Position numbers and translations under genes: made by a program | Assembly: GCA_020152595.1 (NCBI GenBank) | Contig: JAIGNY010000476.1 | Location: 1,507,501 to 1,571,500 of the forward strand | Direction: 5' to 3' | Source: Chiridota heheva | Lineage: Eukaryota; Echinodermata; Holothuroidea; Apodida; Chiridotidae | DNA: 64,000 nucleotides | In this document: in pieces, positions 1-63,990 of the stretch | Layout of the letters: every line of letters starts with the position of its first letter | How positions within the stretch are numbered: position 1 is the first letter of the stretch | The notes under the pieces: generated by a model | Databases searched by the model: none | Seen by the model: only the letters and a program-made list of their open reading frames with translations | What the model was told of the DNA's origin: nothing

Positions 1-1320
1 AAATAAAAAAAAACAATCATGATCTCTTTTTCATCATTTTCCTAGTGAAGGTTCCCCCCCTTTAAAAAAAAAAAGGTTTTACTGTGTTAATTTTGTACTG
101 CTGGTCCATTTTTACTATAATTTGGTTAAATACTTATACTGCAGGTATGAAATTTAATTTCTTTCATACTGCGGGTAACAAAATTGTATAATTTTATACT
201 GCAGTTACCAAAATATCTGTCATACTGCGTGTATGTTTTTCGGTTGGTGGGCTGCACACCCTTACCACTTTTAGTATGAAGTGCGCCCCTACCACCTCTC
301 CCAGGCTGTTTATCTCCCCAAATTGTAAAATGTTATTATTTATTATTCTGAGATAACTTAATGGTTTATATATTGGCATTTAGAGATGCTATGTAGCTTC
401 AACGAGGGTCAAAAAGCTTTGCTGAATATGTATGAGTCTCTGGAAAATTGCCTAGACTCTATATGGAACACAAAAGGGTCATTTTTGTTGTTCCATACAA
501 AAGCGTGGTCAGAGCTAGCTGGCTCTCAAGACGCTTAATCAATGGTACGCATCAACAACATCTGCTAAAATAGGACAAATAGGTCGGTTTTGGACAAATG
601 CGGATGCCGCAAATAAGTCTACATTGATTACATTTTTTGTCATATTCACTTTGTTTCATTTAAACACAACAAAAAGTAAACTTTGTTGGAGAAAAGAAAT
701 TATTATATTGAATAAGAATTTTCGTTAAGATTATGTTTCATAAATGTTTACTGTTTTTGTTGTTAAATTGTTTTTAAGAAGCAAAAATATTAAAGGTTTT
801 TTGCGGTATGCGCATTCTTCCCATCGTTTCATGACTCTACGCGCTGCGAGGGAGCAACAAGCTAAGTACAGTACAGCACAGTTGTTTCTTGCGTTCTGGC
901 AACATATTTTATGTATTTGTTGTATAAGGATAGTATAGACTATAGGGCTAACGTTAGGCCTATAGCTAGCTAGCTATGATAACAGGCCTAGGCCGAACGC
1001 TAGAATTTAGAAATACCTGTGGTAAGTAGTCCCTAAGTCGTTTTATTTCTCATTGCATATTTCATCACCAACATTTTATCGAGGTAGCATTAACATTGTA
1101 TTGCATTGTAAATACAAATCTTTGAGCTACAAACAATATGAATAAGATCGTCTTGCATTTACTATACTCTTTTAATTCCAACAGCACTGCAGTTTTCGAA
1201 ACTGAGAAAACATTTGATCAGTAATGGAGTAGTTCTGCAAATTTACTTTTTTTATGAAATTCGAAAAAAATGATCTTTCTCAATCTCTTCTTAAGTGGTA
1301 TGTGGGCAAATACTAGTCAT
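1..1320. other. AT-rich sequence without a recognised gene
   Basis: No open frame here shows a recognisable domain. Between about 130 and 240 there is a degenerate short repeat built around CATACTGC(A/G)GGTA. A palindromic patch of AGGCCTATAGCTAGCTAGC type lies near 955-1000. Nothing else stands out. Confidence 0.5.
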
Positions 1321-1324
1321 GATA

Positions 1325-1460
1325 TATATCCCTTAGTATGGGTTGACATTGGGATTGCCGTACGCGGACGGCCAGCCATCACCAACAGCAGCCATACTAA
1401 CACGGCTGACATCAGTCCGACAGTACTGCCTACATCATGTACGGGGAGTAGGCAAATACA
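1325..1460 (+). mobile_element. MITE-like repeat, family A (partial copy)
   Basis: This segment shares long near-identical stretches (GGTTGACATTGGGATTGCC, CGGCCAGCCATCAC, ATACTAACACGGCTGACATC, CAGTCCGACAGTACT) with 13030-13260 and in part with 11730-11792. That makes a dispersed noncoding repeat family with at least three copies here. No coding capacity is seen. The class is inferred from small size, copy number and lack of coding; no target duplication was established. Confidence 0.6.
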
Positions 1461-1572
1461 ATAATATTTTCAGAGATAGGAATCTGAATAGGTTAAGTAC
1501 TGCCTACATCATGTACGGGGAGTAGGCAAATACAATAATATTTTCAGAGATAGGAATCTGAATAGGTTAAGT
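1421..1572. repeat. Two-copy tandem duplication of about 76 bp
   Basis: The block starting GTACTGCCTACATCATG and ending AATCTGAATAGGTTAAGT occurs twice head to tail with almost no differences, so the duplication is recent. It overlaps the right part of the family A repeat. Confidence 0.8.
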
Positions 1573-1599
1573 CGGTAAAAATCTTTCTAGAGGACATGA

Positions 1600-2040
1600 A
1601 CTCCAACCGAGCATAGCAAAAGTATGAGAAAATAAAAATTAGGTCTAAGTCACTCTAACAAGCTCAGCAAGTTTAGCTTTAAAACAGTTTAGACTTGGTG
1701 CATGTACAACATCTGATGCTAAAGCATTCGAAGTTTTAGTGTTTGAGGAAAAAGTGAGTATATATATTCTTTTTAGCATAAGGAATGTGGAAATTTAGAT
1801 CATGGTTATATCTTGTATTCTTGCGTTTGGGATTAGATTATCATTATCAATGGTGACAAGATTGTTATTGATTTTATATAGCATTTGTAGATGGGTGTTC
1901 CTTCTTGTTATTAGCAGGGCTATTCCAATTTATGCAGCATGCTAGTGACACTAGATATATAAGAGTAGTCTGCCATACAGAACCTGGCTGCTCTCCGTTG
2001 AATTGACTCAAGTTTATCTACATGATGGGGGGGTCTTAGA
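1600..2040 (-). pseudogene. Non-LTR retrotransposon, C-terminal RT tail remnant
   Basis: The reverse strand reads KLESIQRRAARFCMADYS, SSVTSMLHKLE, TRYNHDL and HIPYAKK pieces in shifting frames. This is the typical tail after the reverse transcriptase of CR1/L2/RTE-type non-LTR elements (consensus style: Q.RAARF...Y...SSVT.ML..L.W, then a Y..P....). Stops and frameshifts show it is dead. It differs from the CR1-like tail at 14973-15359, so it belongs to another family. The exact clade is not resolved. Confidence 0.6.
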
Positions 2041-2574
2041 CTGCTGATGCATACTCAAGAGATAGGAACAGTGTGTACCCAGCAGTTCGCCTCGTTCCTG
2101 CTTGGAAGGCGAGACAAAAACCCAACAACAAAACAAATCTGCCCGGAAATTACTAACGTTAGGCCTAACAGTTAGCGCAGAATTCGCGTTAACAACAAAT
2201 TTGTCATATATTATGTCATATATGGCTGGAATTTTTACAATACATTTTGTACCTGTGTCGTAAAATTTATATATAGCATGTGAAATTTACGCCAGAGTTT
2301 TTCATTACCTTAAATGAAAATAATAAAAATCTTACCTCTGATGCGTTTGAAAACAATTTTTCACACAAAAATGAATTTGAATTACTCTGAAAAAAGAAGA
2401 AAAAAAGGCAAAACTACGAGACGTAATGCTTGAATGATTCAGCATGTCCATACAAGTACAGTACATAAACATATAGGCTAGTATATATATATAGTCAGTA
2501 TATACATGTACACTGTATGTGAAAGTTTTGATGTTGTTTTGAATGCAAGCTGTCAAAATAAATACTCATTCTTT
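2041..2574. other. No gene seen between two retroelement fragments
   Basis: AT-rich spacer with short TA runs near 2480-2510. No domain or convincing exon was seen. Confidence 0.4.
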
Positions 2575-4270
2575 CCTCAGGAAAGTTGTTCTAGGAGGGT
2601 TATTTTTTGGGGGGATTTTAATGTTCCAGACATTGACTGGAATCTTTATACTAGTGGTCCACATGGTGAAGATTTTCTGGGAGCTGTATTTGACTGCATT
2701 TTCACCCAGAATGTGTTGTTTCCCACGTGTCGTAGTAATTGTCTTGATTTGATTTTTAGTAGTGAAGAAAGTATGGTTAGAAATGTACTAAGTAGTGGTA
2801 AGGTAGGGTGTAATGATCATGACCTCATTAGTTTTAATCTGTATCATTTCACAAAGCCTTCTCCAGCTAAAAAACTGGGTTTAGAATTTAAGAATGCTGA
2901 TTTTGCTGCACTTCAGGATAATTTGTCATTCGATTGGACTTCTTTGCTTCGTGACATAGGTCCTGCTAAAGCATGGGATGTTTTTTGAACTATAGTTTTG
3001 GAGGGTTTAAATAGGTTTGTCCTATTAAAGAAAGTCTGTAGGTGTAATCGGCCAGTGTGGATGTCTCCGGAGGTTTTGCAGGCTGTTCGGAAAAAGAAGA
3101 AGTTGTGGTATTGTTGTAAACACAGTGGGTGTCCTGTGGAGCTAGCTAGGTATAAGGATCATGAAAAGTTCACAAAGGGTTTGATAAGAGATTCTAAAGT
3201 GTCTTTTGAAAAACTTTGTCCAAAGAGGTTCAGATTAATCCTAAGTCATTCATTCTTATGTTCGCTCTAAACAAAAAACCAAGGAGGTTGTTGATCCCCT
3301 TCATGGTAATGATGGTGTTACTATCAATAGTGGTTAGGATATGGCTTAGGTTTTGAATGACTACTTTGTGTCTGTTTTTACTAAGGAGTTCCCTGCTGAT
3401 GATGTTGTGGATTATCTCAGTGTGCACATTCCAGTATCTATAAAGAAGGTTGATTTTTCAGTTGATGTTGTGTCTAAGAAGTTGAAGGGTTTGAAGTCAA
3501 AAAATGCATGCGGTCCAAATGGTATACTGTATATCCTGCTGTCTTACATGAGTGTTCTGATGTTCTTTCTGTTCCCCTGAGTATTATCTTTTCAAAGTGC
3601 TTTGATGTTGGTGTAGTTCCTAGTGATTGGAGAATTGCTAATGTCACTCCTATTTTTAAAAAGGGTGACCACAGTTTGCCTTGTAACTATAGGCCAGTGA
3701 GTCTTACTAGTGTTGTGAACAAGGTCATGGAGTCCATTGTTGAGGATGTTGCACTAGATAATTTACTGGTCAATGGTTTGTTGAATTTGTCCCAGCATGG
3801 GTTCTTACCCAAGAGGTCTTATGTTTCCAATTCATTGGAGTTTCTTGATGATGTTACTAAACTAATTGATTTTGTCATAATGTGGATGTTATCTATTTAG
3901 ATTTCCAAAAAGCATTTGATAAGGTTCCATTGGGCAGGCTCATGACGAAAACAAGAGCGCTTGGTGTGGAGGGAAAGTGTGTCAGTTGGATATATTCTTG
4001 GTTAGTTGACAGGTCACAGAGAGTGTTGTTAATGGTGAAGTATCTCGATGGAAGAAGGTTACAAGTGGTGTTCCTCGGGGTTCTGTATTGTGTCCGCTTC
4101 TTTTCTTAATCTTCATTAATGATATTGATTTTCCCTTGGCTCCAGGATTTGTAAATTTGCTGATGACACTAAGCTGTACAGGATTGTAGATGATGCTAGG
4201 GATTCTTCACTTTTGCAAACTGATCTGGATAAGTTAGTTTCTTGGTCCCAAACATGGCAGATGTCATTCA
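2575..4270 (+). pseudogene. CR1-like non-LTR retrotransposon, endonuclease/RT part (left half)
   Basis: Broken pol gene of a CR1-like LINE. The end of the APE-type endonuclease is visible: GDFNVPDIDW at about 2611, and CNDHDLISFNL near 2810-2840, the catalytic DH pair. A linker with NRPVWMSPEVL follows at about 3048. RT motifs then follow: NYRPVSLTSVVNKVMESI (about 3690), YLDFQKAFDKVPLGRL (about 3891), [19 protein letters not shown] (about 4070) and the catalytic FADD (4156-4167), ending at LVSWSQTWQMSF (4270). Reading-frame shifts and stops (for example the TGA after WDVF at 2986) show it is inactive. The 5' part of the endonuclease is missing. The pol frame resumes at 14687, so the element is split by an insertion. 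Confidence 0.9.
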
Positions 4271-5110
4271 TATGGGCGGCCGTGTGGGCAAAAATAAAAA
4301 ATAAAAAAATAAAAAGTAAGAAACATAAATATAAAAATGAAATAGACAAAAAGAAACCAATAAAAAAAGTATGTTACAAGAAAAATATAAATTGAATATA
4401 AAATAAGTGAAAAGATTTCAATGCAAACAAATTTAAGAAAAATATATTTAAGAAACAAACTAAAATGAAATGATTGAAAAGGAAACCGATAAAAAAGATT
4501 TAAGAAAAATGAAAATTGAATATGAAATGAATGAAAAGAATTCAATACAAAAGAAATTAAGAACAATTATTAATAAAAACATAAACTGAAAATAAAATGA
4601 TTAAAAAGAAACCAATAAAAAAATGGATGTTATACAAAAATATAAATTGAATATGCAATAAATACAAATAAATAAATACAAAAGATTATAAGAAAAATAT
4701 AAACTAAAAACGAAACAAATAAAAAAAAAAAAAAATTTAAGTATATAGTAATAAGAAAACGACAAATTAGATACGAAATGAATAAAAGAAAACAAAATCC
4801 AAGTAATATACAAACAGAAAATATATCTCCAAATGTAAGTACTTATATATATAAACATTAATATATGTAATAATAAAAATGCTTCTATAAGCAGTTTGTC
4901 TGTAAATTTGTCTTTAAATCTTTAAATCAATATATCTTTAAATTAATGTATCTTTAAAACAATTTATCTTTAAACAGAAATGTAAGTATAGTCTCAGCTT
5001 TTATATATACAAACAGAATTCTAAGTACAAAAAAATATATACGTACAAAAAAATATATACCTACAAAAAAATATATACGTACAAAAAAATATACGTTCAA
5101 AAAGACAAAA
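4271..5110 (+). repeat. A-rich left arm of the 10.4-kb insertion
   Basis: Degenerate tandem units of the form AAATGAATAAAAAGAA-TTCAATACAAAAG fill 4290-4800. They match, in inverted orientation, the T-rich right arm at 14290-14680. The inner part carries repeats of GTACAAAAAAATATATAC (5030-5090). Confidence 0.7.
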
Positions 5111-5751
5111 AAATGTGAAAAAGGATATATGCGCAGCACTTTGCACACCACAATGCAATGTAACATGTGTTGCGTACACTTGCAATCTGTTACCGATTAT
5201 ACTTGGCAGCAGTTTCACTGCGCACCACAGATATTATATATGCATATCGGTTTCGTTAACGTACGACTCAAACATTTACATCAGGCCGCACCAGGTATTG
5301 AAGGGTACTGGTACTGTAAGCCGGGCACTTCCGACAAAAGTTCTGTTTCCCTTCTAATTAGGCCTACAGCCTCTACAAATATCGTGTTGGAATTTGTTTC
5401 CGTATCCTTTTTTTCCACATGAGGTTCTTAGATACCCAGACCAAGCCTGTCATGCTCAATTAAGACATACTTTTTGTCAAATAGGCCCACAGCAGTGATC
5501 TTGGTGTCATTTAAAAGAGCTTGAATAGTTCTTTTTGAATTTTTTTTTTGTGGATGGGGGTTGTGTTAAAGAATTTTGCAAAAAATTGGAATAAAAAAGA
5601 GAGATTTTAAATAATGCACAAAATATAAAGAAAACACTTTTTTTCTTCAAAAGCTTCCTTGCCATACTTCTAGACCTAGCTTTTGCTTGAAAAGTCGTGA
5701 ACAACGGCAAAGACATCAAAGTATCCAATGCCGGTCGAATTTTGACTGCCC

Positions 5752-5832
5752 CTACCATCAATATCTCTTTTGGCAAAATTTGTGCCAAATTCTACCATCA
5801 ATATCTCTTTTGGCAAAATTTGGGCCAAATTT
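5752..5832. repeat. Two-copy tandem repeat of about 40 bp
   Basis: The unit beginning CTACCATCAATATCTC and ending AAAATTTGTGCCAAAT occurs twice in a row with a single-base difference. Confidence 0.8.
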
Positions 5833-6024
5833 GATGACTTTTAAGCCTTTTTGAGACCAAAGTTTTGAAAAAAATTGTAAGTTCTGATTACAATACACCT
5901 ACCGTACATGAAATGTATCGTAAGAAAGGCCAAGCCAGTACTTTCAATTGATATCAAAAAGAGCAGGTACCCCTTCTCTAATCACATTTAATTTAAGTTA
6001 CTATCAAGCATTTTTATTTCTAGT

Positions 6025-6110
6025 TAGACGCTTTAGTCTAGTCGCAAATCTTAATGCACAGCACGCGATGGCCCAAGTTCGATCCCCGCACTGGACCACG
6101 TGGCTTTCCT
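6025..6110 (+). repeat. tRNA-derived SINE-like head (weak)
   Basis: The stretch has a B-box-like AAGTTCGATCCCCGCACTGG and, upstream at roughly tRNA spacing, a degenerate A-box-like TTTAGTCTAGTCGCAA. A similar head occurs in opposite orientation at 43935-44010. It does not fold as a proper tRNA by inspection, so it is called SINE-like. Confidence 0.3.
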
Positions 6111-6779
6111 TTTCCGCTAGTAATTAATTTTTTTGTTTATTTTCATTGTTTTTGCATGTTTTGCTTTGAGAACAAAATTAGACTGGTATCAAAGGAAAGG
6201 AAAGGAAATCTCACAAACCTTTTTTAATTTGACTTTGTCATTGAAAAGTTTATTCTCTTCACATTCATAGAAACTAAACTTGTAGTGGTAGAAAAGGAAA
6301 GGAAAGTTGTGAAAATCAATTTTGAAAACAAAATTCTGATAATTTTTTTTTCATGTTTTGAACCCCTGGGTCTTTAAGGGTTTAAGTTGGCTTCACGCTG
6401 AGCATAGCATTACGTTGCACAAACATAAACTTGTAGCTTGTAGGCCCTTACTCACCATGCTTGGGCACAAATCCTGGTGAAGTGCATTGTGGTGCACAAA
6501 GTGCTGTGCATGTTTTTCTATTTACATATTCATATTTTTTCTCCACATAATTTGTTTTTTATTCATATATATTTTTTTGTACTTATACATTTCTGTTTTT
6601 ATGATAAACAAATAAAAGGCTGTCTGCACTTATATTTCTGTTTAAAGATATATCACTGTTTTGTAGATATAGTAATGTTTATATTTTTAGAGAAAAAATT
6701 CTATTTGGAGATGTATTATCTGTTTGTGTAGTATTTTTTATAATCTTTGTTACTGTAGTCGGAAATCTGACCTCGTTTA

Positions 6780-8620
6780 ACCTGAAAACATTAAACATTG
6801 CGGACGTCATACAATTTTGAATTTGGCTCGAAATTCAAATGCAATGTACGGCACAACATCGAGCAAAATTTCACCCTTTATAAGTCAAATTAACTTGACT
6901 GATTTAAACTTTATGGAGAAATATCATCAAAGCAAACACAGAACAGCCTAACCCTTATGTATACTGATATAAAAGTGGAAAAAATAAGGTCAAAACCTAC
7001 CACTAGTCCGATCGAACGTATCGGCCGATGGTCGAAAATCAGGCCTAAATTGACTTTTTCAAAATCAACAAAAGAATTTCATAGCTAAAATTGTAGGAAA
7101 TTTACTTCTTGACACAAAAAAGTAATCGATACTAGACAGTTACGCTGTGAACGGTAGTTCACAAAACGTTTGCAAGCAGATTTTGAATGTTAAACACGCG
7201 TGTGATGGTCGCCATTTTGAACGCTGAATATTCAACATATATGACCAGGTATTTGAATATTAATCATCATTACACTGGTTCTATCAGTGCACTTGCGGGA
7301 GTACACTGGTTCTATCAGTGCAATTGCGAGAGCAGCCTGGTTCCAACACTCAATTTGGGAGATTCAATTATTTGAAAACGATTGAGAAGGGCAAATTAAG
7401 TTCGGATAAAACAGTACATCTCAAATGACACTTTCCTGGTACATTTTAGAAGTATGGTAAAAACTTTACAAATAAGCTAAGCTTTTAAATAAAATAAAAA
7501 GACCTAATAAAGGTTGGGTAAATTTGGGTTGGAGGTTATATGGGGTTCAGTCGGTGGGCTTAAGAAAAATTGGATGAGATATTAAATAAAAAAGAGAAGA
7601 CTGGGTTTAACAACATGACGAAGGAGACAGTTCATAGTTTGCCCCTAATGTGTTATTTCCAACTGGGCTTGCAATAATTATGAAGTTATGGATTCGACCA
7701 GGGGCAGATTGGTCAACTGACCCTGGACCAGTGGTCAAGGCCGGTCCCAACACGCTGATCGACTTTTCCCCATAACTTGAGTTTGGCGCTGGCCCATTGG
7801 ACTAGCTAATGTAATTTTTTCAGGAAATAAAACAAAAATATTTGTGTGCCTCATGCAAATCAACGAATTAACATTATGACACTTATCATTTTTTGCGTGG
7901 TAAGGTCAGACGAAGGCACCGGTCATTTTACCTCGACCGGTATATTTTTATGTGTCAGTCCGCGCCTGGATTCGACCCTCATATATGGTACACAAATGCA
8001 TTTTGGCAGTTTAGCAAAAATTGTTAGATCAAAAGTGGGTGTGGAAATTAAGTCCAACTGAGGCAGGGAGTAGATATTGCTTCTCATCTCCCATTCAATT
8101 CCTCCACTGTGTTCGGTATTTGTTCATAAAACACAAAATGTAACGTCAAAGTAATCCATGGTGTTGTCCTTCAGTACTTGGTCCGCGGGATACATTATCT
8201 TTTCCTCTTGCAAAATAGTAACGAATGGATAACATCAGGAGCAAATGACACAGCCAGCCTTAAAAAAATGAGTGTGGCGGTGATGGGGAGGGGAAAGGGT
8301 GATGAAGGAGGGGTTATGGGGAGGGGTGATGGGGGGGGGAAGGAGTGAGGAGGGAAAGGTGAGGGGGACAATTGTGAGAAGGGTCGAACTGTGATGTCAA
8401 GGTCCAGAAATTACAACAAGGAAAAAAGGTGGGCGTTTCAGCCATTCCCAGTCCTTTTTGAGAGGTTGAGAGGGAAGATCCTTGTTGCAATGGTGGGAAA
8501 TAGGCGAAACAAAGGAGAGAAAATATTACTTGGCAATACTTCACATAGAACAAATACATTCTCCCCATAAACCTTTGCATATACACCCACTTTCCTTGGG
8601 ATGCCCACCACAAGACATTT
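6780..8620. other. Interior of the 10.4-kb insertion, no gene seen
   Basis: No domain or exon was recognised. CACTGGTTCTATCAGTGCA occurs twice in tandem at about 7273-7322. A G-rich run with many GGGG tracts lies at 8275-8360 on the + strand. Open frames here are short and lack family resemblance. Confidence 0.4.
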
Positions 8621-9269
8621 TCATTTTCTAGTCTGTGGTGTGACTTGGTTCAGGCTTGACCCTGAATCTTTGGGCTAAATAACCATCTGAAAAATCAATG
8701 AGGATGGGAACTTTCAGAAAGAAGTTTCAAATCAGGTTAATTAGTTCCAAAAGAATTATCTTTTTTTTTTCCAGTCAGTTTATAGCTTAAACAAGGTTGC
8801 CAAGACAATGCTAAAACAGCTACAGAAAAAACTCAAAATACTTCAAAGGTGAATTCAGGATGAGGTTAACCACAATGGGTGCACTGGAAATTGATTCAAA
8901 CAATACAGAAGTAAAATTAGCACACCAATACCTTCAATGACTTAATGACCTCGATTGACCATCCTTACATCCACCTTTGGAATACTTTAATTTAAGAAAA
9001 GCAATAAATAAGACACAATGGAGACAGATTAAACAATAATAACTCTTGTTATCTTCAAATGCAACAAAATAAGAACCAATAAAAATACATCTTTATCAAG
9101 TTAACCTGAATAAAGGGTAGTGCTTATGTAAGTCTTATCAATACACAATATAAATATAAACAGCTGGCCAAAAAACTCCACATCAAGTGTGTATTACTGT
9201 AAGTTTCTTTGATATTACTTGTTATAAATATAACAAATCTGACACTTCTATAACATTAAAATGAATGGC

Positions 9270-9535
9270 ACTTCCTCGTATCACACAGACAGCCTTAGAT
9301 ATATACAGTATATGTCACCCAGACAGTCTTTAATAAAACCAATGTCACCCAGACAGCCTTAGATATATACAATGTCACCCAGTCTTTAATAAATACAATA
9401 TGTCACCCAGAAAGCCTTAGATATATACAGTATATGTCACCCAGACAGTCTTTAATAAAACAATATATGTAACCCAAACCGGCTTTAATATATGTCACCC
9501 AGTCTTTAATACATACAATATAATGGACTTTCCAC
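9270..9535. repeat. Minisatellite with TGTCACCCAGACAG units
   Basis: Unequal tandem units of roughly 35-75 bp, each with a TGTCACCCAGACAG core followed by TCTTTAATAAA or CCTTAGATATATACA. About six or seven degenerate copies are seen. It lies within the likely 3' untranslated or flanking part of the unidentified - strand gene. Confidence 0.75.
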
Positions 9536-10274
9536 CTTACACAAATAGAAAACCAGACAGATACAAACAAGGCAAAACTTTAAACTATGACTACTTTGCA
9601 CAGGAAGCTCACAAGTGATAAATCATGGTACTTCTTAGAAAAATAGACACATTTTCTCATTCTTTACTGTTCATATGTACATTTATAGTTGTAAAACTGT
9701 ACATAGCTAGTATATGTCAAAAATAAACTGTACAGTTTAAAAGGTACAAACAGGAAGAGCACAAATATTATGCTGTTAGTCGCTACCAACACTTCAAACA
9801 TACTAGTTTTACACAGCTTTTTTTTTTTTTTTTTACACAGCTGCATTACAAAATAACTTTAAAAAAAATAACATTCATGTGGCTATTGTACACACCAACT
9901 CACTTTATTGTGACCAATTAATTTATGGGCAGGTCAGGTACAAGAAATTTTAAAAGTTGTTGTATTCTGAATTTACAGCTCTTTGTAAACAACTTAAAAC
10001 ATGTCCATAGAAAAGTAATCAATTATGTCCTCTCAAGGTACAAGTAAGAAAGAAAGACACTGATTGTTACATCTTTATCACTTGAATAACATGTGTTTCT
10101 TTACCAGCCAATTACATTTGGAGAGACAAACTTCTTTGTACTTTTTACAACTTCTCCACAATCATCCATGATTCAATGATAAATAATGAAGACATCATTG
10201 CTAATCCAACTGAATGTATATGGCAAACAATAGTCTTTTAGGCTAACTGCTCTCCAGCACTGGTTAAATTTGTC

Positions 10275-10391
10275 CATGCCCATAGCCACTTGCAGGACCC
10301 ATGCCACTCATTTGTGAATGCACTATCTGGACGGCCCTGGTGTTAGTAAATTCACTTTCAGGATTTAAACTGGACATCACTTATCTTCAAT
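10275..10391 (-). other. Coding-like island on the minus strand (uncertain exon)
   Basis: The reverse strand has an open stretch reading VMSSLNPESEFTNTRAVQI followed by HSQMSGMGPASGYGHGQI and a stop. It is richer in G+C than its surroundings and has protein-like composition. An in-frame stop lies directly upstream, so it would need a splice acceptor (an AG at about 10380 is available). It could be the real last exon of the gene that includes 11534-11715, or a chance open stretch. No family was recognised. Confidence 0.25.
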
Positions 10392-11533
10392 GCTACTAAC
10401 TGATCACTCAATGAAAAACAGTAGCAGATCATACAATATCTTGGGGAGGGAGGATGAGGGGGAAGGGGGCACAGTGGCATTCAATAAAAGCCCAGCAATG
10501 GTTAATGAAATGACAGGCGTCATGACATTTTCACTTTTGACATACTTACCAATGGCTGCTAAAAAGAGTTAAGTAATAGTTTTTGGTTAAAAATATAAAA
10601 AAACCCATTTAGTATTTAGCATTCATCCATCACTGTACTGATGCATATGTACCTGTGAAAATAAAAAAAAAATAAAAAAATGTTTGAGTAATCATGAGAA
10701 AAAAATCATACTGTACATAAACTATTATATACTATATATATGAGCCAAACTTGAAGTGCTCAAGGGATTAAGTGGAAAGAATACAAGTCATCATTGGCAC
10801 GTAAGTTACTGCTTGCTGGAATGGTTAACTTGTTCTATATATATAGAAAACAGCAAGAAAAGACTTTGGTACCTGTAAAAATAATAAATTAATATAATGA
10901 ATGTTCTTAAAAAACTTTATTCTTTCTAAATTTGTATCACACACATGCATTCTTTAAACAAAGAAAATGAATACACTGTACATTAAGGCAGGCATTTGTA
11001 CTGGCATCAGATATGGCAAATGAAAAACATACTGATCTTTGGCACACACATGATATATAAAAGTAAAAAGATAGGGATCCAAAAAGTGGTAAATGTTATA
11101 TGTCTCTAGAAGTACACAGTTACTGGTATGGTAAAGCTTTTAAAATAAAAAAGGAAGTAAAGCTTTAGCACTTGTAAATAGCAGCTTCATGGCAAAATTA
11201 AAAACACTTAGTAAGCCTCACAATACAATGTCTCAAACAAAGGCAACTGAAAGTCAATAAAAGGCAGGCAAGTACATTTAATCTGTGCTTTCTACTTCAT
11301 AGGGAAAATAATTTCTGATGGGCTTCATTTTGCATTGCCCATCATATATACACATTAACATTTTAATACAATTTCAATACTAAAATTCATGGTTTCCAAT
11401 AATCTAGAGTTTTATAAAATTGTTACCTAATACAGTAACATTTAAATAAAATTTTAAAATGTAAACCATGAATTGCATGTACAAAATAAGCCTTCCAAAA
11501 TATAATATTTAGGTTCTAACTCATGGGAAACTC

Positions 11534-11715
11534 TTAGATGATACTGTAAAGACCACCAGAATCAATAATCATCTCAACTCCAACTCCCTCTTCAAAGTCA
11601 TTTTGTTCCTCCCAATCATCATTGTCAGCCACACTGATGTCTCCCAAAACATTGGGACCATAATCTGATTCATTGGAACTGAAATAAGATTCATCTGAGG
11701 TAACTTGGGAATCAT
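11534..11715 (-). CDS. Acidic C-terminal exon of an unidentified gene
   Basis: On the reverse strand a pyrimidine-rich acceptor (CTTTTACTCTCAG) opens a 59-codon frame: DSQVTSDESYFSSNESDYGP, then NVLGDISVADNDDWEEQNDF and EEGVGVEMIIDSGGLYSII, then TAA. The frame needs one base from an upstream exon, and an in-frame stop just before the acceptor supports the splice site. The peptide is strongly acidic, with serine clusters that look like casein-kinase-type sites, and has no membrane segment. No family was recognised, so no function is assigned. A possible first exon lies at 14023-13949; middle exons could not be fixed. A family A MITE begins within about 20 bp upstream of the acceptor. The gene sits inside the 10.4-kb TIR insertion. 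Confidence 0.45.
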
Positions 11716-11729
11716 CTGAGAGTAAAAGC

Positions 11730-11792
11730 TTCTAGGTCTTACTAGTTATTATACACATCCCTCAGTGCAGGTTAACATTGGGATTGCCGTAT
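11730..11792 (+). mobile_element. MITE-like repeat, family A (fragment)
   Basis: TAGTTATTATACACATCCCT followed by CATTGGGATTGCCGTA matches the copy at 13110-13170. It is cut at about 11792 by the hairpin element that follows. Confidence 0.6.
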
Positions 11793-12281
11793 GACAGGGG
11801 AGAATACTGGACCTTTGGTGTAATAATAAATACACCAAAATTTGGAGCTTCGTATTCATTAAGATCCATGGAGGCCGCCATTTTAATTGTAGTGATAACG
11901 TTAAGTCAATGGGGATTTTTAATGAGAACGCAGGGGGTATTTTTAGAACGAAAAACCAATACTAAATGAATATTCATTAGATTTAACCGCAGACTATTTA
12001 ATCTCATTGTGGACTTCGCGATAGAATAACAAAAGACTTCCAGTGACCTTTTGAACAACCCTCTCGACACAGGATTTTATGATGGCTCAGTCATCGCTGA
12101 TACCATGTACATATATCATACGTTACATTACACAATTACTACCGTTCTCTTAGTAAAAATCCTATTCATATAGCGTTATTACAAGTTAAAATGGCGGCCT
12201 TCATGGATCTTAATGAATACTACGAAGCTCAAGTTTTGGTGTATTTTCTTACTACACCAAAAGTCCAGGATTCTCCTGACT
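11793..12281. mobile_element. Hairpin MITE of about 490 bp
   Basis: The two ends are inverted copies over about 140 bp. GGAGAATACTGGACCTTTGG and CATTAAGATCCATGGAGGCC on the left match GGCCTTCATGGATCTTAATG and CCAAAAGTCCAGGATTCTCC on the right. The middle (about 11935-12140) is noncoding. It sits inside the family A repeat, so it inserted later. No clear target duplication could be fixed. Confidence 0.75.
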
Positions 12282-12299
12282 GACGAGGGTTGTTATAGA

Positions 12300-13029
12300 T
12301 TAGGTACAATTCCTGTTTTTTTAAATTCACACGTTGTATAAAATTGATGATTGAAAAATAACTTACTTTTTGGATATAGTTATATCACTTAGATTAATAA
12401 TACACTTTTTCAATAAAAACTTTCCCTAAATATTTACCTATTTAGCACCACAACGGGATAAAGTTCTCTGAGATTCATATTTTGGTCGTCATTTTCACCG
12501 CACGTTTGTGATTAACTATTCAATGTTTTAATTTTTTTTTTTAGAATGTTCCACTAAACTGCAAGTTGATTTTTCACCAACAACATTTAAATCTTTGTTC
12601 ATATAATTTTATTAAATAGTTTTGCTAAAAAAATGTGTGCGAAAACATATAAAACATCAAGAAATGTTTATATTATATAATTGTACTTTATAAGTATTAT
12701 CTTAATTTTTTCCTCAAATAATCTAAAATATAATACCCCTGCTAAAATAGTATAGCCACGATGACAGTGTTTTGAAGTGACTGTACTTTGAAGAGTCAGC
12801 AATTTTTACGGAAAGAAAGGTAATCCAAAATAATTCAATAAAAATAACTAAAATCACCTTAAAAACAGTTTTTGAAGACATGAATGGGCTTGAACATTGA
12901 TTCTAATCATTGTGAGCGAAAAAGAAGATAGAATGGTTTTGTTTTCATTAAGATCTTAAAACTGAGATTTTCCTATACTTTTAACACCTCGCTTAAAATA
13001 GTACAGGAGGGTATAGGATTTTGTAGCAC
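12300..13029. other. Probable intron of the unidentified gene, no firm exon
   Basis: AT-rich. Two weak - strand exon candidates were noted: near 12435-12465 (reads RELYPVVVLN, followed by GTAAAT) and near 12865-12910 (reads NQCSSPFMSSKTVFK, followed by GTGATT). Phases do not join them cleanly to the flanking exon candidates, so neither is called. Confidence 0.3.
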
Positions 13030-13260
13030 CCTCGGATGGCCAGCCATCACTAACGGCAGCGCAGCCATACTAACACGCTGGCATCAGTCCGACGGTACTA
13101 CAGGGAGTACTAGGTCTTACGTAGTTATTATACACATCCCTCAGTACGGGTTGACATTGGGATTGCCATACGGCCAGCCACCACTAACGGCAGTCATACT
13201 AACATGGCTGACATCAGCTCCATGGTACTACGGGAAGTACTACTATTAGGCCTAGGTCTA
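13030..13260 (+). mobile_element. MITE-like repeat, family A, one and a half copies
   Basis: GATGGCCAGCCATCACTAAC and what follows it at 13030-13110 are repeated in the fuller copy at 13105-13260, which has GGGTTGACATTGGGATTGCC, CGGCCAGCCACCACTAAC and ACATGGCTGACATCAG. The same family is at 1325-1460. Noncoding. Confidence 0.65.
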
Positions 13261-13948
13261 AAAACAGATAATTTGTTTTTTCTAATGTAAATTTAAAAAG
13301 ACACATTGTGAAACTGAGGCATACCCCTTGCTGCATGTACAGGACAAGAAATAAACAACTGCTATAGACAATTCATTAGTACTGATACTATGATAGTAAT
13401 ACTATGCCCAATGGCAAATTGCCAATGTAAAATCTGTCTTAAGAAGAGTTAGCATGCACTTGTAGGCCTAATGTCATTACAGCCTGGCTAAATGATAAGC
13501 GTACTAATATAAGTAGGCCTACTACTACTAGTATATTCGTTAGGGAACAAACACTGAATACAGAACTGAGTGATTTGTAAGAATAACAAAACAGGAAGAA
13601 GAAAAACTAAGCCCGAATGTTAGACTAGGCTCTATATAAATATCAACTGGCATAAAATTGCATGATGATTAGTATTGCACCTTCTCGACCCTAAGCTCCT
13701 GTATTAATAGGTACGATAAAAAATGATGTAGGTACTACAACACGTTACTCGTTAGGCTGCGATAAGGAGCCCCAAACCGGAAGTTCCACAAAAATATTAA
13801 ATTTACAAGAAACATTACACTCAACAAGTGGGAAAGTAAGATTGAACGATAATTTAAACTTTCGGCCGTTACATGGTACTATATGCAAGTCCATATCTGG
13901 CTGTCTATGAGAAATTCACAAAACCAAAAGTGCAGACTCGCCACTCAC
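13261..13948. other. Probable intron of the unidentified minus-strand gene
   Basis: No repeat family or exon was recognised. Short palindromic AGGCCTA motifs recur (13245, 13465, 13515), as they do in several places in the window. Confidence 0.35.
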
Positions 13949-14023
13949 CTCTAAAGCAGCTGATGGAAATGGGATTGCAGTTAAATGCACCTGTTTGATC
14001 GCAAAAATGTGCTGAATATCCAT
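13949..14023 (-). CDS. Putative first coding exon of an unidentified gene
   Basis: The reverse strand has an ATG at 14023 followed by 25 open codons (MDIQHIFAIKQVHLTAI then PFPSAALE) and a consensus splice donor GAG^GTGAGT at 13948. A promoter-like region lies directly upstream on the - strand. The peptide was not recognised. Linking it to the acidic terminal exon at 11715-11534 is inference from shared strand and lack of another gene between them; intermediate exons remain unresolved. Confidence 0.35.
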
Positions 14024-14069
14024 ATCTCTACGTGCACTACATATTCAACACCTCTACTTTCCACAGGTA

Positions 14070-14215
14070 GCCATGTAATTTTAATTTGACGTCACTAAAT
14101 CTGAATATTCAGTTCCAAAAAACTGACTGGTAATTTTAGGTAGCTCAAAACTGCATCTTCGGAGTTACTGCAAAACGACTTCCGGGTCAGCTGTAAATGT
14201 TTAATCAACTTGGGA
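14070..14215 (-). promoter_or_regulatory. Promoter-like region for the minus-strand gene
   Basis: A CRE-type site TGACGTCA (about 14089) and an ETS-type site, CCGGAAGT on the - strand (ACTTCCGG at about 14178), lie 65-160 bp upstream of the putative ATG at 14023. Such sites are common in metazoan housekeeping promoters. No TATA box is evident. Activity is inferred. Confidence 0.35.
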
Positions 14216-14224
14216 TAACGGCGG

Positions 14225-14680
14225 TATAGCGAGGTCAGATCTCCCACTGTGTAGTGGAACATTGTGTGTTATAAGATCTTATCAATTTTTAATTATAGAT
14301 GTGTTTCTTTTCTATTTATTATTTTTGTTGCTTTCTCTTCATTCTCTAAAATTCCATTTGATATATTTCGTATTATTTATTTTCTTTTGTATTGTTTTCT
14401 TTTTATTTATTTCACATTCAATTGATATTTTCCTTAATTAGATACTTTTTTTTTATTGCTTTCTTTTTATTTATTTAATTTTTTGATTTTTATGTTTCTG
14501 CTTATTTCTTTTTCTTTTTAATTTACTTTGTATTGAATTCTTTTTATTTATTTTCTATTAAGAGTTTTTTTTTTATTAGATACTTTTCTTTTTAATTGGT
14601 TTATTTTTTTGTTCCATTTTTATTTCATGTTTCTTAGTATTTTTCTGTCTGTTTAATTTTTGCCCAAATGGCCGCCCAAA
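14225..14680 (-). repeat. T-rich right arm of the 10.4-kb insertion
   Basis: Read on the reverse strand it carries GGGCGGCCATTTGGGCAAAA at its outer end, then AAGAAACATGAAATAAAAAT and further A-rich units like those of the left arm (which has AAGAAACATAAATATAAAAA). Its inner limit is the AGATCTGACCTCG motif near 14230. Confidence 0.7.
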
Positions 14681-14686
14681 CATTCA

Positions 14687-15450
14687 ATGTTGATAAATGC
14701 AATTTTTTCTTATTTTGGTCAGAGTAATTTGGCTTTTGATTACTGCATGAATGCATCAAATCTTGGTTGTGTTGATAAAGAAAGGGATCTAGTGTTGTCA
14801 TTACTAGCAATCTAAAGCCCTCTAAATAGTGTGCTGTAGCAGCTGCAAGGGTAAATAGGAATGCTTAGTTTGATTAGAAGAATTTTTGTTTTCTTGGTAG
14901 AGAGGTTGTTCTTAATTTGTATAAGCAGTTAGTCAGGCTTGGAGTCCCTTTTATGAAAAGAATAAGTTCATTTTGGAGCAGGTTCAGCAAGGAGCCACTA
15001 GACCTATTCCTGAAGTAAGGAATCTCTCTTATGAATCTAGGTTGCGAATTCTTGGTTTGACCACGCTTGAGTTGAGAAGATTATGTGGCGATATGATTCA
15101 GGTTTTTAAGTTCCTATCTGGTAGTGATGCTTTGACTTCCTGTTATTTCTTGCATGTTTCAGCTAATCCTCATGTGACACGTGGTAACAGTTTGAATTTA
15201 ACCAAAGTCTTCTCATGGATAGATATTCAGCGTTTTAGCTTTTTGCAAAGAGTTGTTAATGAGTGGAATGGTTTGCCTGAGTGGGTAGTCAGCCCCAATT
15301 CTGTTCACAATTTCAAAGTCAGCATTGATAAGTTCTTAACTAACTCTGGGCATCTTTGATTTTTTTTTTTTGAGGTGGTGGTAGTGTTAGTTTGGGCTTA
15401 TTATGGGGTGACTAATCCTTTTCAGCTCGTAATGTTGTTATGTTATGTTA
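14687..15450 (+). pseudogene. CR1-like retrotransposon, C-terminal part (right half)
   Basis: This is the continuation of the element at 2575-4270. Across frames it reads FNVDKC, DYCMNASNLGCVDKERDL, CAVAAARVNRNA, EVVLNLYKQLVRLGVPF, then EQVQQGATRPIPEVRNLSYE, LGLTTLELRRLCGDMIQVFK and FLQRVVNEWNGLPEWVV, stopping at 15359. That is the standard post-RT tail of CR1 elements. Frameshifts near 14710-14960 show decay. A short 3' tail with GTTATGTTATGTTA near 15440 is consistent with a CR1-type simple-repeat end. Confidence 0.9.
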
Positions 15451-31440: not shown

Positions 31441-33946
31441 GCCTTCTCTGCCCTTCGGTTTCCTTCTTCTCTCTGGTTTCCTTCTGCCCTCTGGTTTCCT
31501 TCTGCCCTCTGGTTTCCTTCTGCTTTCCTTCTGCCCTCTGCTTTCTTTCTCCCCTCTGGTTTCCTTTCTCCCCTCTGGTTTCCTTTCTCCCCTCTGGTTT
31601 CCTTCTCCCCCTGGTTTCCTTCTCCCCTCTGGTTTCCTTCTCCCCTCTGGTTTCCTTCTCCCCTCTGGTTTCCTTCTCCCCTGTGGTTTCCTTTTCCCCT
31701 GTGGTTTCCTTCTCCCCTGTGGTTTCCTTCTCCCCTGTGGTTTCCTTCTCCCCTGTGGTTTCCTACTCCCCTCTGGTTTCCTTCTCCCCTCTGGTTTCCT
31801 TCTCTCTGGTTTCCTACTCCCCTCTGGTTTCCTTTTCCCCTGTGGTTTCCTTCTCCCCTCTGGTTTCCTTCTCCCCTCTGGTTTCCTTCTCCCCTGTGGT
31901 TTCCTTCTCCCCTGTGGTTTCCTTCTCCCCTGTGGTTTCCTTCTCCCCTGTGGTTTCCTTCTCCCCTCTGGTTTCCTTCTCCCCTCTGGTTTCCTTCTCC
32001 CCTCTGGTTTCCTTCTCCCCTCTGGTTTCCTTCTCCCCTCTGGTTTCCTTTTCCCCTGTGGTTTCCTTCTCCCCTGTGGTTTCCTTCTCCCCTGTGGTTT
32101 CCTTCTCCCCTGTGGTTTCCTTTTCCCCTGTGGTTTCCTTCTCCCCTGTGGTTTCCTTCTCCCCTGTGGTTTCCTTCTCCCCTGTGGTTTCCTTCCCCCT
32201 CTGGTTTCCTTTTCCCCTGTGGTTTCCTTTTCCCCTGTGGTTTCCTTTTCCCCTGTGGTTTCCTTTTCCCCTGTGGTTTCCTTTTCCCCTGTGGTTTCCT
32301 TCTCCCCTGAGGTTTCCTTCTCCCCTGTGGTTTCCTTCTCCCCTCTGGTTTCCTTCTCCCCTGTGGTTTCCTTCTCCCCTGTGGTTTCCTTCTCCCCTGT
32401 GGTTTCCTTCTCCCCTCTGGTTTCCTTCTCCCCTCTGGTTTCCTTCTGCCCTCTGCTTTCCTTCTGCTTTCCTTCTGCCCTCTGCTTTCCTTCTGCCCTC
32501 TGCTTTCCTTTCTCCCCTCTGGTTTCCTTTCTCCCCTCTGGTTTCCTTCTCCCCCCTGGTTTCCTTCTCCCCTGTGGTTTCCTTCTCCCCTGTGGTTTCC
32601 TTCTCCCCTGTGGTTTCCTTCTCCCCTGTGGTTTCCTTTTCCCCTGGTTTCCTTCTCCCCTGTGGTTTCCTTCTCCCCTGTGGTTTCCTTCTCCCCTGTG
32701 GTTTCCTTTTCCCCTGTGGTTTTCTTCTCCCCTCTGGTTTTCTTCTCCCCTGTGGTTTCCTTCTCCCCTCTGGTTTCCTTCTCCCCTCTGGTTTCCTTCT
32801 CCCCTGTGGTTTCCTTTTCCCCTGTGGTTTCCTTCTCCCCTCTGGTTTCCTTCTCCCCTGTGGTTTCCTTTTCCCCTGTGGTTTCCTTCTCCCCTGTGGT
32901 TTCCTTCCCCTGTGGTTTCCTTCTCCCCTGTGGTTTCCTTCCCCCCTGTGGTTTCCTTCTCCCCTCTGGTTTCCTACTCCCCTCTGGTTTTTAGCCCCTC
33001 TGGTTTCCTTCGCCCCTCTGGTTTCCTTCTCTCTGGTTTCCTACTCCCCTCTGGTTTCCTTTTTGGTTTCCTTCTCCCCTCTGGTTTCCTTCTCCCCTCT
33101 GGTTTCCTTCTCCCCTCTGGTTTCCTTCTCCCTGTGGTTTCCTTCTCCCCTGTGGTTTCCTTCTCCCCTCTGGTTTCCCCTGTGGTTTCCTTCTCCCCTC
33201 TGGTTTCCTTCTCCCCTTCTCTGGTTTCCCTTCTGGTTTCCCCCTCTGGTTTCCTTCTCCCCTCTGGTTTCCCTTCCCCTCTGGTTTCCCTTCCCTCTGG
33301 TTTCCTTCTCCCCTCTGGTTTCCTTCTCCTCCCTCTGGTTTCCTTCTCCCCTCTGGTTTCCTCCCCTGTGGTTTCCTTCTCCCCTGTGGTTTCCTTCTCC
33401 CCTGTGGTTTCCTTCTCCCCTGTGGTTTCCTTTCCCCTGTGGTTTCCTTTTCCCCTGTGGTTTCCTTCTCCCCTGTGGTTTCCTTCTCCCCTGTGGTTTC
33501 CCCTGTGGTTTCCTTTTCCCCTGTGGTTTCCTTCTCCCCTCTGGTTTCCTTCTCCCCTGGTTTCCTTCTCCCCTCTGGTTTCCTTTTCCCCTCTGGTTTC
33601 CTTCTCCCCTCTGGTTTCCTTCTCCCCTCTGGTTTCCTTCTCCCCTCTGGTTTCCTTCCCCCTGGTTTCCTTTTCCCCTCTGGTTTCCTTCTCCCCTGTG
33701 GTTTCCTTTTCCCCTGTGGTTTCCTTCTCCCCTCTGGTTTGCCTTCTCCCCTGTGGTTTCCTTTTCCCCTGTGGTTTCCTTCTCCCCTGTGGTTTCCTTC
33801 TCCCCTCTGGTTTCCTTCTCCCCTGTGGTTTCCTTCTCCCCTGTGGTTTCCTTCTCCCCTGTGGTTTCCTTCTCCCCTCTGGTTTCCTACTCCCCTCTGG
33901 TTTCCTTCTCCCCTCTGGTTTCCTCCTCCCCTCTGGTTTCCTTCTC
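31441..33946 (+). repeat. 18-bp minisatellite, about 2.5 kb
   Basis: Roughly 130-140 copies of CTGGTTTCCTTCTCCCCT, with frequent T/G variation (CTCTGG versus CTGTGG), TTCTCC/TTTTCC variants and a few units shortened by 1-8 bp. Because the unit is 18 bp and has no stop in any + frame, it leaves very long open frames (SGFLLP-type repeats) that are by-products, not genes. It is strongly strand-asymmetric: pyrimidine-rich on the + strand. It lies 1.5 kb after the MED21 stop codon. Confidence 0.95.
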
Positions 33947-61249: not shown

Positions 61250-63150
61250 CGCAACCTAAGAAGCGTTTACATGCGACGCATCGCAGGACAGTCAAGGCGC
61301 GTAACGCACTGACACTAGGGACCTGCCCGTCGTAGCCGATGATATAGGCGCAAAACATCGCGGAACTGTGGCGTTCACGCGGAAAATCCTACAGAGGCAG
61401 TTCGCGGCCGTGGAACAGCGTAGCTATGACCAAGCAGCTTCCTAGCTAGCGAACTCAACCGGGGTTCATCGTACAGTGTGCGTTATCCGTTGCAAAAACT
61501 CTGAAGTCGTACAGGCCCGTCACGGTCTAGAGAAGCGTTTGCATGCTATGCAAAGCGGGACCTCTGAGGTGCGTAGCGTGCCGGCCACGGAGGCCTGTCC
61601 TCCGTGCCTACGATACTGGTGAAAGTAATTGCGGAAATGTAACGTTCAACGCGGATAATCGTATAAATGGTGTTCATGATCGTGGAACTGCGTAGCTAAT
61701 GGCCACGGAACCATGAATAGAATAGCTCTCACGGCGCTATACTACTTGTGAAGATTATCACTTGTCACCTGGCCACATAGCTCGTAGCTAAGCGGGTGCA
61801 TATCCGGGTAAATAAATGCGTGTCACGATATCCCGTTACAAAACTACGGAGCCGTGCGCATCCGAACACGAGCCGCGCGCTCTCGGTCGCACCTTGAAAA
61901 ATACCGGTCGCGGTGGAGTCTGTGCTCCGACCACGCCGCTTGAACAATCGCTGCAAAGAGTACCACGAATGGACTGCAGCATAATCCGCAGCGTAACGCG
62001 GCGTGAGATGGATGTGACCGGGCGTAAATCAAAGAAGCGTTAGCACGCTCGCCGGGACATCAAGGGTGTGTAGAGCATCGGCGCCCGAGGACCTGTCCTC
62101 CATGTCCATGATACTGGTGAAAATAATTACGGGCGGTAATGTTCGCGCAGACAATCTTAATTGCGTTTGCAGTCGTGGAACTGCGTAGCTAATGGCTACG
62201 GGACCAAGAAGAAAATAGCTGTCGTGATGCTATACTTCTTGTAAAGAAAGTCATCTGTCACCTGACCACGTGGCGTAGTAGCTAGTGGGCGTATAACGGG
62301 TGAACCGTACAGTGTACGTTATCCCATTAAAGATAAGTTCCGCTCACTGGAGCCGTCCAATGGAAGCGAAAGGACCGTAAACACGGACCGTGGAATCGTA
62401 TGGAACCGTGCGGACCCGTAAACACGGGCGCGGAACCGTCAATGGAACCGTGCGGACCCGTAAAACACGGACCGTGGAACCGTGCGGACCCGTAAACATG
62501 GGCGTGGAACCGTATAACTGTCGTAGCCGTTGGCTCTGGGACCAGAAAGAAAAATAGCTGTCTCAATGCTATACTTCCGGATTAACCGTCACGGTGTCGT
62601 CTTTCAGAGGCGCTCCGCTAGGAGTGGGCGGCGGCCCGCCTCCCTGGCTTTGGACCTGGGTGGCGGTGGGGAGACGAAGAGGGCCTATCAGACCGTCCCT
62701 TCTCCACTTTCTCCGCCGCTCTTTGAAAGTACGGTCGCGGTGGAGTCTGTGCTCCGACCACGCCGCTAGATCCCAATCGCTGCAAAAGTACAGGGATTTG
62801 ACTCGCAGCATAATCTGCCGCAGCGTAACACGTGAGATGGATGTCACGGGCGTAATTTAAAGCGTTTGCACGCTCACGCATCACGAGACATCCTGGGTGT
62901 GTAAAAACATCGACACTCGGGGACCTGTCCTTCATGTCCATGATACTGGTGAAAATAAATCACGGAACTTGTAACGTTCGCGTAGACAGTCTTAATTGCG
63001 TTCACACGAGCCGTGGAACTGCGTAGCTAATGGCTACAGGACCAAGAAGAAAAATAACTGTCAATGCTATACTTCTTGTCAAGAATGTCACCTGTCACCT
63101 GACCATGTAGCTAGTGGGCGTATTGGATTAAACCCGTGCGATGTCGTTAA
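61250..63150 (+). repeat. Tandem array of a 300-350-bp satellite-type unit
   Basis: At least four units (starting about 61258, 61530, 62030 and 62855) share GAAGCGTTTACATGCGACGC, GGACCTGTCCTCCATGTCCA, ATACTGGTGAAAATAAT, GGAACTGCGTAGCTAATGGC and CACCTGACCACGTAGCTAGTG. Units differ in length through indels. A shorter relative is at 60760-60960. The matching single unit is in the MED21 intron (23310-23790). Confidence 0.8.
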
Positions 63151-63169
63151 CCCGTTAAATACGGACCCG

Positions 63170-63990
63170 TGTAAACACGGGCGCGGAACCGTCAATGGAA
63201 CCGTCCGCCCGTAACAACGGGCGCGGAACCGTATGGAACCGTCCAATGGAACCGTCCGCCCGTAACAACGGGCTGCGGAACCGTCCGCCCGTAACAACAG
63301 GCGCGGAACCGTATGGATCCCGGAACCGTCCAATGGAACCGTCCGCCCGTAACAACGGGCGCGGAACCGTATGGACCGCGGAACCGTCCGCCCGTAAACG
63401 GGCGCGGGCGTATGGATCCCGGAACCGTATGGATCCCGTTCCGGAACCGTATGGATCCGTCCCGAACCGCACAATGCCCGCACATAGGGCTGCGGAACCG
63501 TCAGGGGCGGTCCAACGGAACCGTATGGAACCGCCCGCCCGTAACAACGGGCGTGGAACCGTATGGAACCGTCCGCCAATGGAACCGTCCGCCCGTAACA
63601 ACGGGCCGCGGGGAACCGTATGGAACCGTCAATGGAACCGTCCGCCCGTAACAACGGGCGCGGAACCGTATGGAACCGTCCAATCCCGTCCGCCCGTAAC
63701 AACGGGCGCGGAACCGTATGGAACCGTCCAATGGAACCGTCCGCCCGTAACAACGGGCGCGGAACCGTATGGACTCACGGAACCGTCCAATGGAACCGTT
63801 AAGCCCGTAACAACGGGCGCGGAACCGTATGGACTCACGGAACCGTCCAATGGAACCGTTCGCCCGTAACAACGGGCGCGGAACCGTATGGACTCCCGGA
63901 ACCGTATGGAACCGTCCCCGGACTCGCAGCAGCCCGCGTACTAGGGCTGCGGAATCGTCGGGGACTGTCCAATGGAACCGTTTGGAACCG
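63170..63990 (+). repeat. Minisatellite with GCCCGTAACAACGGGC hairpins
   Basis: Units of about 50-65 bp combine GGAACCGTATGGAACCGTCC, CAATGGAACCGTCC and the palindrome CGCCCGTAACAACGGGCG (7-bp stem, 4-base loop). About twelve hairpins occur between 63207 and 63885. A sparser version (GGAACCGTGCGGACCCGTAA) precedes it at 62340-62520. Rich in CpG; open frames on both strands are by-products. Confidence 0.9.

Follow-up and report, generated by a model that had tools for sequence, protein, structure and literature searches.

A gene-like unit inside a split CR1 element of Chiridota heheva is very probably a remnant of a nested DNA transposon

Does the gene-like unit found inside a split CR1 element of the holothuroid Chiridota heheva stem from a captured host gene, or from the mobile DNA that surrounds it? 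The DNA under study, hereafter the window, is a stretch of 64,000 nucleotides from contig JAIGNY010000476.1 (assembly GCA_020152595.1, positions 1,507,501 to 1,571,500 of the forward strand). An earlier note, made from the sequence alone, described a 10.4-kb insertion with terminal inverted repeats that splits the CR1 and carries a minus-strand unit, comprising a first-exon-like segment and an acidic terminal exon. It proposed that a single element had captured a spliced gene, or that the gene was the element's own and unrecognised. Here, we find that the 10.4-kb insert is composed of two transposons, one nested in the other, inside an older CR1. As a whole, the locus is very probably a stack of three mobile elements, in which the gene-like unit is a remnant of the transposase gene of the inner element. 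The gene-capture lead gives way to an ordered history, in which a long-armed element entered the CR1 and was itself later entered by a 7.5-kb element.

The 5' part of the host CR1 occupies positions 2482-4270 of the plus strand and consists of decayed endonuclease and reverse transcriptase frames. The Pfam match to Exo_endo_phos_2 (2482-2985, E 6.3e-7) is above the cut-off and that to RVT_1 (3478-3897, E 0.019) is below it; the frame is open up to WQMSF at the left side of the insert. The 3' part (14687-15359), which has the same orientation, resumes with NVDKC and includes a frame at 14925-15359 that has no Pfam match and that resembles a CR1 C-terminus. The insert is bordered by direct copies of CATTCA at 4265-4270 and 14681-14686, its outermost 25 bases agree at 22 positions, and its arms are A/T-rich and inverse to each other. 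When the two CR1 flanks were joined without the insert, 40 of 40 scored genomic matches crossed the joint, with identities of 91-94%. These matches are paralogous empty sites. The insertion, its coordinates and its CR1 flanks on both sides are as the earlier note had given them, and the first-exon-like segment and the acidic frame are also present where it had placed them.

What does not stand is the unity of the insert. The arms belong to an outer element of about 2.9 kb, while the middle is a separate element of 7.5 kb. Nor do the two arms come from different elements, the case that the earlier note had named as a refutation of its reading; both belong to one element, and it is the middle that is foreign. 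The left piece of the outer element (4271-6757, plus strand) comprises a long A/T-rich arm, the middle and the start of the right arm. The right piece (14250-14680, plus strand) holds the remainder of the right arm and the terminus GCCGCCCAAA, which usually reads CCCATA at its end, so that the element as a family runs from TATGGGCGGCCG to CCCATA. The left piece was aligned to ten fetched loci (L019-L028), of which L028 could be aligned in part only, with a run of N, and several have gaps or further insertions. With the left arm as a query (4200-4900), the match begins exactly at 4271 in 19 of the 39 other places scored, and within 4262-4279 in 36 of them. With the right arm as a query (14000-14760), all 39 of the other best-scored copies begin at 14250, and 13 more partial rows begin within the arm. 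In the fetched outer copies, the sequence from 4271 to about 6764 continues directly into 14250-14681, with a short overlap at the joint. The site without the inner insertion, TTATTGTAGTGGAAC or near it, was read in 20 rows that represent 16 distinct genomic places. Conversely, the outer element was absent from all 31 fetched loci of the inner family, including flanks of about 40-130 bases, with L021 as a positive control. The right-arm starts at 14250, the continuous outer copies and the inner loci lacking the outer element rule out a single 10.4-kb element.

The borders of the inner element (6758-14249, minus strand) were defined from its copies, ends and duplications. Matches to the query 4850-8500 at 39 other scored places begin within 6747-6763. 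The junctions in the window are TTACTGTA/GTCGG on the left and CACTG/TGTAGTGG on the right, and the duplicated TGTA lies at 6754-6757 and at 14250-14253. At the left junction, TGTA is followed directly by GTCGG, the two terminal bases of the element, CA, being lost here. The order of events is as follows. A cut-and-paste element of about 2.9 kb, with long A/T-rich inverted arms, first entered the CR1 and duplicated CATTCA, a step that we regard as shown. The 7.5-kb element, of a different family, later entered the right arm of the outer element and duplicated TGTA, as is shown by the uninterrupted copies. Full inner copies are 93-97% identical to the window, while outer left arms are 84-88% and outer right arms 87-91% identical; the closer match of the inner copies is consistent with the inner element having arrived later. 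The termini of both families are abundant. A 23-base outer terminus, in the exact form of other copies and slightly different from the two ends of the outer element in the window, has 68 + 74 genomic occurrences and its reversed control has none, while a 20-base inner terminus pattern with two ambiguous positions has 93 + 99, with none for its control. Chance is thus excluded.

The two families also lie close together elsewhere. One inner-family copy (G000:C628:403862-412387) has an outer-family terminus 1.2 kb from its end, which may reflect a second and independent nesting. At L020 660-1063 (C25), an inner-family piece that corresponds to window 6820-7237 at about 84% identity is directly beside a copy of the outer element.

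The gene-like unit lies wholly inside the inner element. The ends of this element are CAGTCGGAAATCTGACCTCG and CTCCCACTG, and the termini among the copies compared are CAGTCGGAAATCTGACCTCG and CGAGGTCAGATCTCC[C/G/T]ACTG. With the query 8500-14250, at least 16 other places cover positions 1-5750 of 5751 at 93-97% identity; this is a lower bound, as the best 26 of 4692 candidates, the copy of the window included, were scored. Four copies compared pairwise were 96.6-97.6% identical. The DNA of the gene-like unit is present in all 16 of the other near-complete copies, and it was therefore not captured at this locus. An exact 4-bp duplication was found in 10 of 14 two-ended copies, which comprise seven of eight in one set, two of three read by eye, C3232 (exact), and C187 and C1435 (not exact); two copies whose left end was outside the fetched piece and one in which no right end was found were left out of this count. 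One further inner-family copy (G000:C49:8550-10435) has a tandem run of a unit of about 67 bp, with 28 rows matching window 10776-10852.

The source of the unit became apparent from longer copies with the same ends. Two of these, C187 and C1435, were located via unusually spaced pairs of termini among the matches listed, beyond which other long copies may exist. C187 is 11,772 bp long and has a long minus-strand coding region in several broken frames, with the same acidic tail. C1435 measures 12,022 bp between its termini and was rejected as an autonomous copy: it is a derivative split by an element whose frames look like reverse transcriptase (by eye). The third copy, C3232 (744327-757566, 13.2 kb), has both termini, the duplication TTAT and an uninterrupted frame of 1831 codons from stop to stop. 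Residues 1765-1831 of this frame match window 11725-11519 with 74% identity (tblastn, E 1.7e-22). The acidic terminal exon (11519-11725, minus strand) hence corresponds to the C-terminal 67 residues of the putative transposase, although the frame in the window ends early, with a stop at 11534. No other part of the window matched either this protein or a second long protein (L058, described below) at E 1e-3, and a Pfam scan of window frames 11534-11731, 8314-8649 and 11736-11969 gave nothing. At the other end of the unit, the first-exon-like frame (13949-14023, minus strand) has 25 codons and a donor, GTGAGT, that is common to the window, L029, C187 and C3232. Homology identifies the gene-like unit as a residue of the putative transposase gene of the inner family, of which only the two ends survive. 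The suggestion that the gene was an element's own and unrecognised was sound in this respect; the gene belongs to the inner element and is reduced to its ends.

At the DNA level, the inner element of the window aligns with C187 in several blocks at 6757-11724 and once more, with a gap, at 13290-14249. For the segment between these two stretches (11725-13289), neither C187 nor the part of C3232 that was fetched holds a counterpart. The window retains the upstream side of the gene, with the first-exon-like segment and its donor, and, at the opposite end, the acidic C-terminal tail and the following 4.8 kb or so; the coding middle is gone, with some 1.6 kb of unrelated DNA in its place. With the middle lost, the inner element cannot make the transposase itself. 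Within the replacement segment lie a 49-bp direct repeat (92%, at 11743 and 13122) and, at 11799-12276, a long palindrome; matches to parts of this segment occur at window 1311-1427 and in C1435. The parent of this filler was not found among 40 scored candidates, all of which were the inner family's own copies. The repeat at window 1311-1427 recurs within the segment at 13033-13217 and 11740-11791. As in Ds-like internally deleted elements with filler DNA, the ends of the element and the borders of its gene are kept and the coding middle is replaced. Unlike these, the inner element also retains about 4.8 kb of non-coding DNA 3' of the gene and is unusually long. Having kept both termini and the flanking DNA, it would be moved by the DUF6589 protein of full-length copies in the same genome. 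The family would also account for a gene-like unit that gene-finding programs may annotate many times in this genome.

To which families do the two transposons belong? For the outer element, left-type termini read TATGGG or TATGGGC-like in 14 of 14 rows (rows of overlapping loci counted apart), and right-type termini end in ATA in 15 of 17, the exceptions being L003 and the right end of the window, which reads CCCAAA. The duplication is 6 bp in the window and exactly 6 bp in four of nine two-ended copies. According to a review (PMC10045372), IS3EU elements have TA..TA ends and usually 6-bp duplications, which mostly applies to GingerRoot too. The outer element fits a non-autonomous IS3EU/GingerRoot-like element in these two features, and IS3EU was among the 6-bp families that the earlier note had named. 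It differs from IS3EU/GingerRoot in that no transposase was recognised in any copy examined, and in having very long, A/T-rich arms that contain internal tandem repeats. A longer copy, L025, was considered as a carrier of the transposase and rejected, as its extra 3.6 kb holds retrotransposon-like frames (by eye). Most likely, the outer element would have moved by an IS3EU-type enzyme made elsewhere. Alternatively, its affinity could be with another superfamily that makes 6-bp duplications, such as Polinton or Dada, or with a foldback-type group that has no name yet. The missing transposase, together with arms that recall foldback elements, speaks for such an origin, whereas the TAT..ATA termini and the 6-bp duplications agree with IS3EU as described in the same review; we consider this alternative possible but doubtful.

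Some outer copies have been rearranged. In L019, L024 and L027 (C654, C1622 and C600, respectively), the right arm is tandemly duplicated with its terminus, in units of about 307 bp that correspond to window 14375-14681, which is a possible route to satellite arrays. In L026 (C826:5142800-5148600), an inverse right-hand piece of the outer element directly precedes a nearly complete outer copy.

The inner family is characterized by its long proteins. A protein search of the genome gave 97 matches, with the best 78 of 694 candidates scored, and brought up the copy on C3232. The second long protein (L058), from a frame of 1774 codons, is 44% identical to the 1831-codon protein. In the long proteins, no Pfam family other than DUF6589 (PF20231) exceeds its cut-off; DUF6589 has 35.1 and 40.7 bits against a cut-off of 27. 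A CXC cluster (Pfam TCR) was matched in five of ten family members with a best E of 0.002, and the single member displayed in full has 15.8 bits, below the cut-off of 23.5. An NCBIfam search gave no meaningful match. The C-terminal 562 codons, compared between C187 and C3232, have a pN/pS of 0.66 from 37 differences, which is weak evidence of constraint. Three motifs are conserved in the C-terminal third of the long proteins, HEEGDSRVWYHA, SPDRDTF and SGCDYTSFFKG. Judging by eye, we take them to resemble the acidic core of XPG/FEN nucleases, a likeness that Pfam and PDB sequence searches did not confirm. DUF6589, a Pfam family of unknown function, is linked here to complete DNA transposons with defined termini, which gives this domain a likely function in transposition.

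Together, DUF6589, the XPG-like motifs, the CXC-like cluster, the acidic tail and the 4-bp duplications suggest that the inner family probably belongs to the Academ group, of the XPG type (AcademX). The very large single protein of the longer copies is also as in AcademX, and the motifs resemble those of the XPG-nuclease proteins of that group, again unconfirmed by the searches. The copy in the window differs from AcademX in lacking the coding middle. Polinton was rejected for the inner unit, with its 4-bp duplications and no Polinton gene recognised in the frames scanned. A less probable assignment is to another, possibly unnamed, superfamily that is built on DUF6589. That DUF6589 alone passes its Pfam cut-off argues for it, as does the absence of the term DUF6589 from the literature searched, which says nothing on Repbase or subscription journals. 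Besides the motifs, the 4-bp duplications count against it, since 3 or 4 bp are given for AcademX in the review (PMC10045372). A stronger claim would make DUF6589 the catalytic core of a cut-and-paste transposase of animals, in a superfamily of its own, with 4-bp duplications and with a second nuclease-like domain in the same protein of about 1,800 residues; it appears rather unlikely.

Several observations weigh against the reading of the locus as three stacked elements with a transposase remnant. Five of the nine two-ended outer copies lack an exact 6-bp duplication: one has 7 bp, one 5 bp, one 5 of 6 matching bases, and two have none at all. No likely transposase frame was seen in the listed outer copies L021, L024, L025 and L027 (L028 is largely N). 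In the inner family, the 4-bp duplication is not exact in four of the 14 copies: it measures 3 bp in L030 and is absent from C1545, C187 and C1435. When the first exon is joined in phase 0 to the nearest obvious acceptor, a stop is met at once (by eye), and the second long protein could start inside its long frame, which leaves the first exon unproven. Furthermore, four sequence searches of the PDB, with a 234-residue piece holding the motifs and with the whole protein or profiles, returned no nuclease, and no XPG model matched the long proteins in Pfam.

Could the 7.5-kb element still be autonomous, with a short spliced protein of the first exon and the acidic exon that moves it or helps to do so? 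The tail frame is open in three of the four copies compared (the window, L030 and L031), and identity to the window rises from 96.6% overall to 99.1-99.5% in the 212 bases around the tail. Against this, the fourth copy (L029) has one stop in the tail, and L032 lacks window 11452-11830 with the entire tail. Likewise, with a query from 11730, 17 of 39 other scored places start at query position 93-154 instead of 1, that is, they lack at least the first 90-150 bases or so. Moreover, open long frames exist in the same genome. We consider an autonomous 7.5-kb element very unlikely. Since L032 lacks the tail and the 17 places start likewise, amplification probably does not depend on the tail in cis.

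Capture of a spliced host gene by one 10.4-kb element, for which the position of the unit between matching outer ends and the lack of a counterpart of 11725-13289 in the two longer copies compared could be cited, is dismissed as extremely improbable: the unit is flanked by transposon ends of its own, with 4-bp duplications, and recurs at 16 other places, none of the 31 fetched inner-family loci shows an adjacent outer element, and the tail of the unit is that of a transposon protein, whose coding region lies within elements that share these termini, so that no parent host gene is required as the source of the acidic exon.

Apart from these elements, the window contains two stretches of tandem repeats. 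One, at 31457-33946, is an array of about 140 copies of the 18-bp unit GGTTTCCTTCTCCCCTCT. The other, at 62375-63905 near the window end, is composed of G+C-rich nested tandem repeats built on GGAACCGTCCGCCCGTAACAACGGGCGC.

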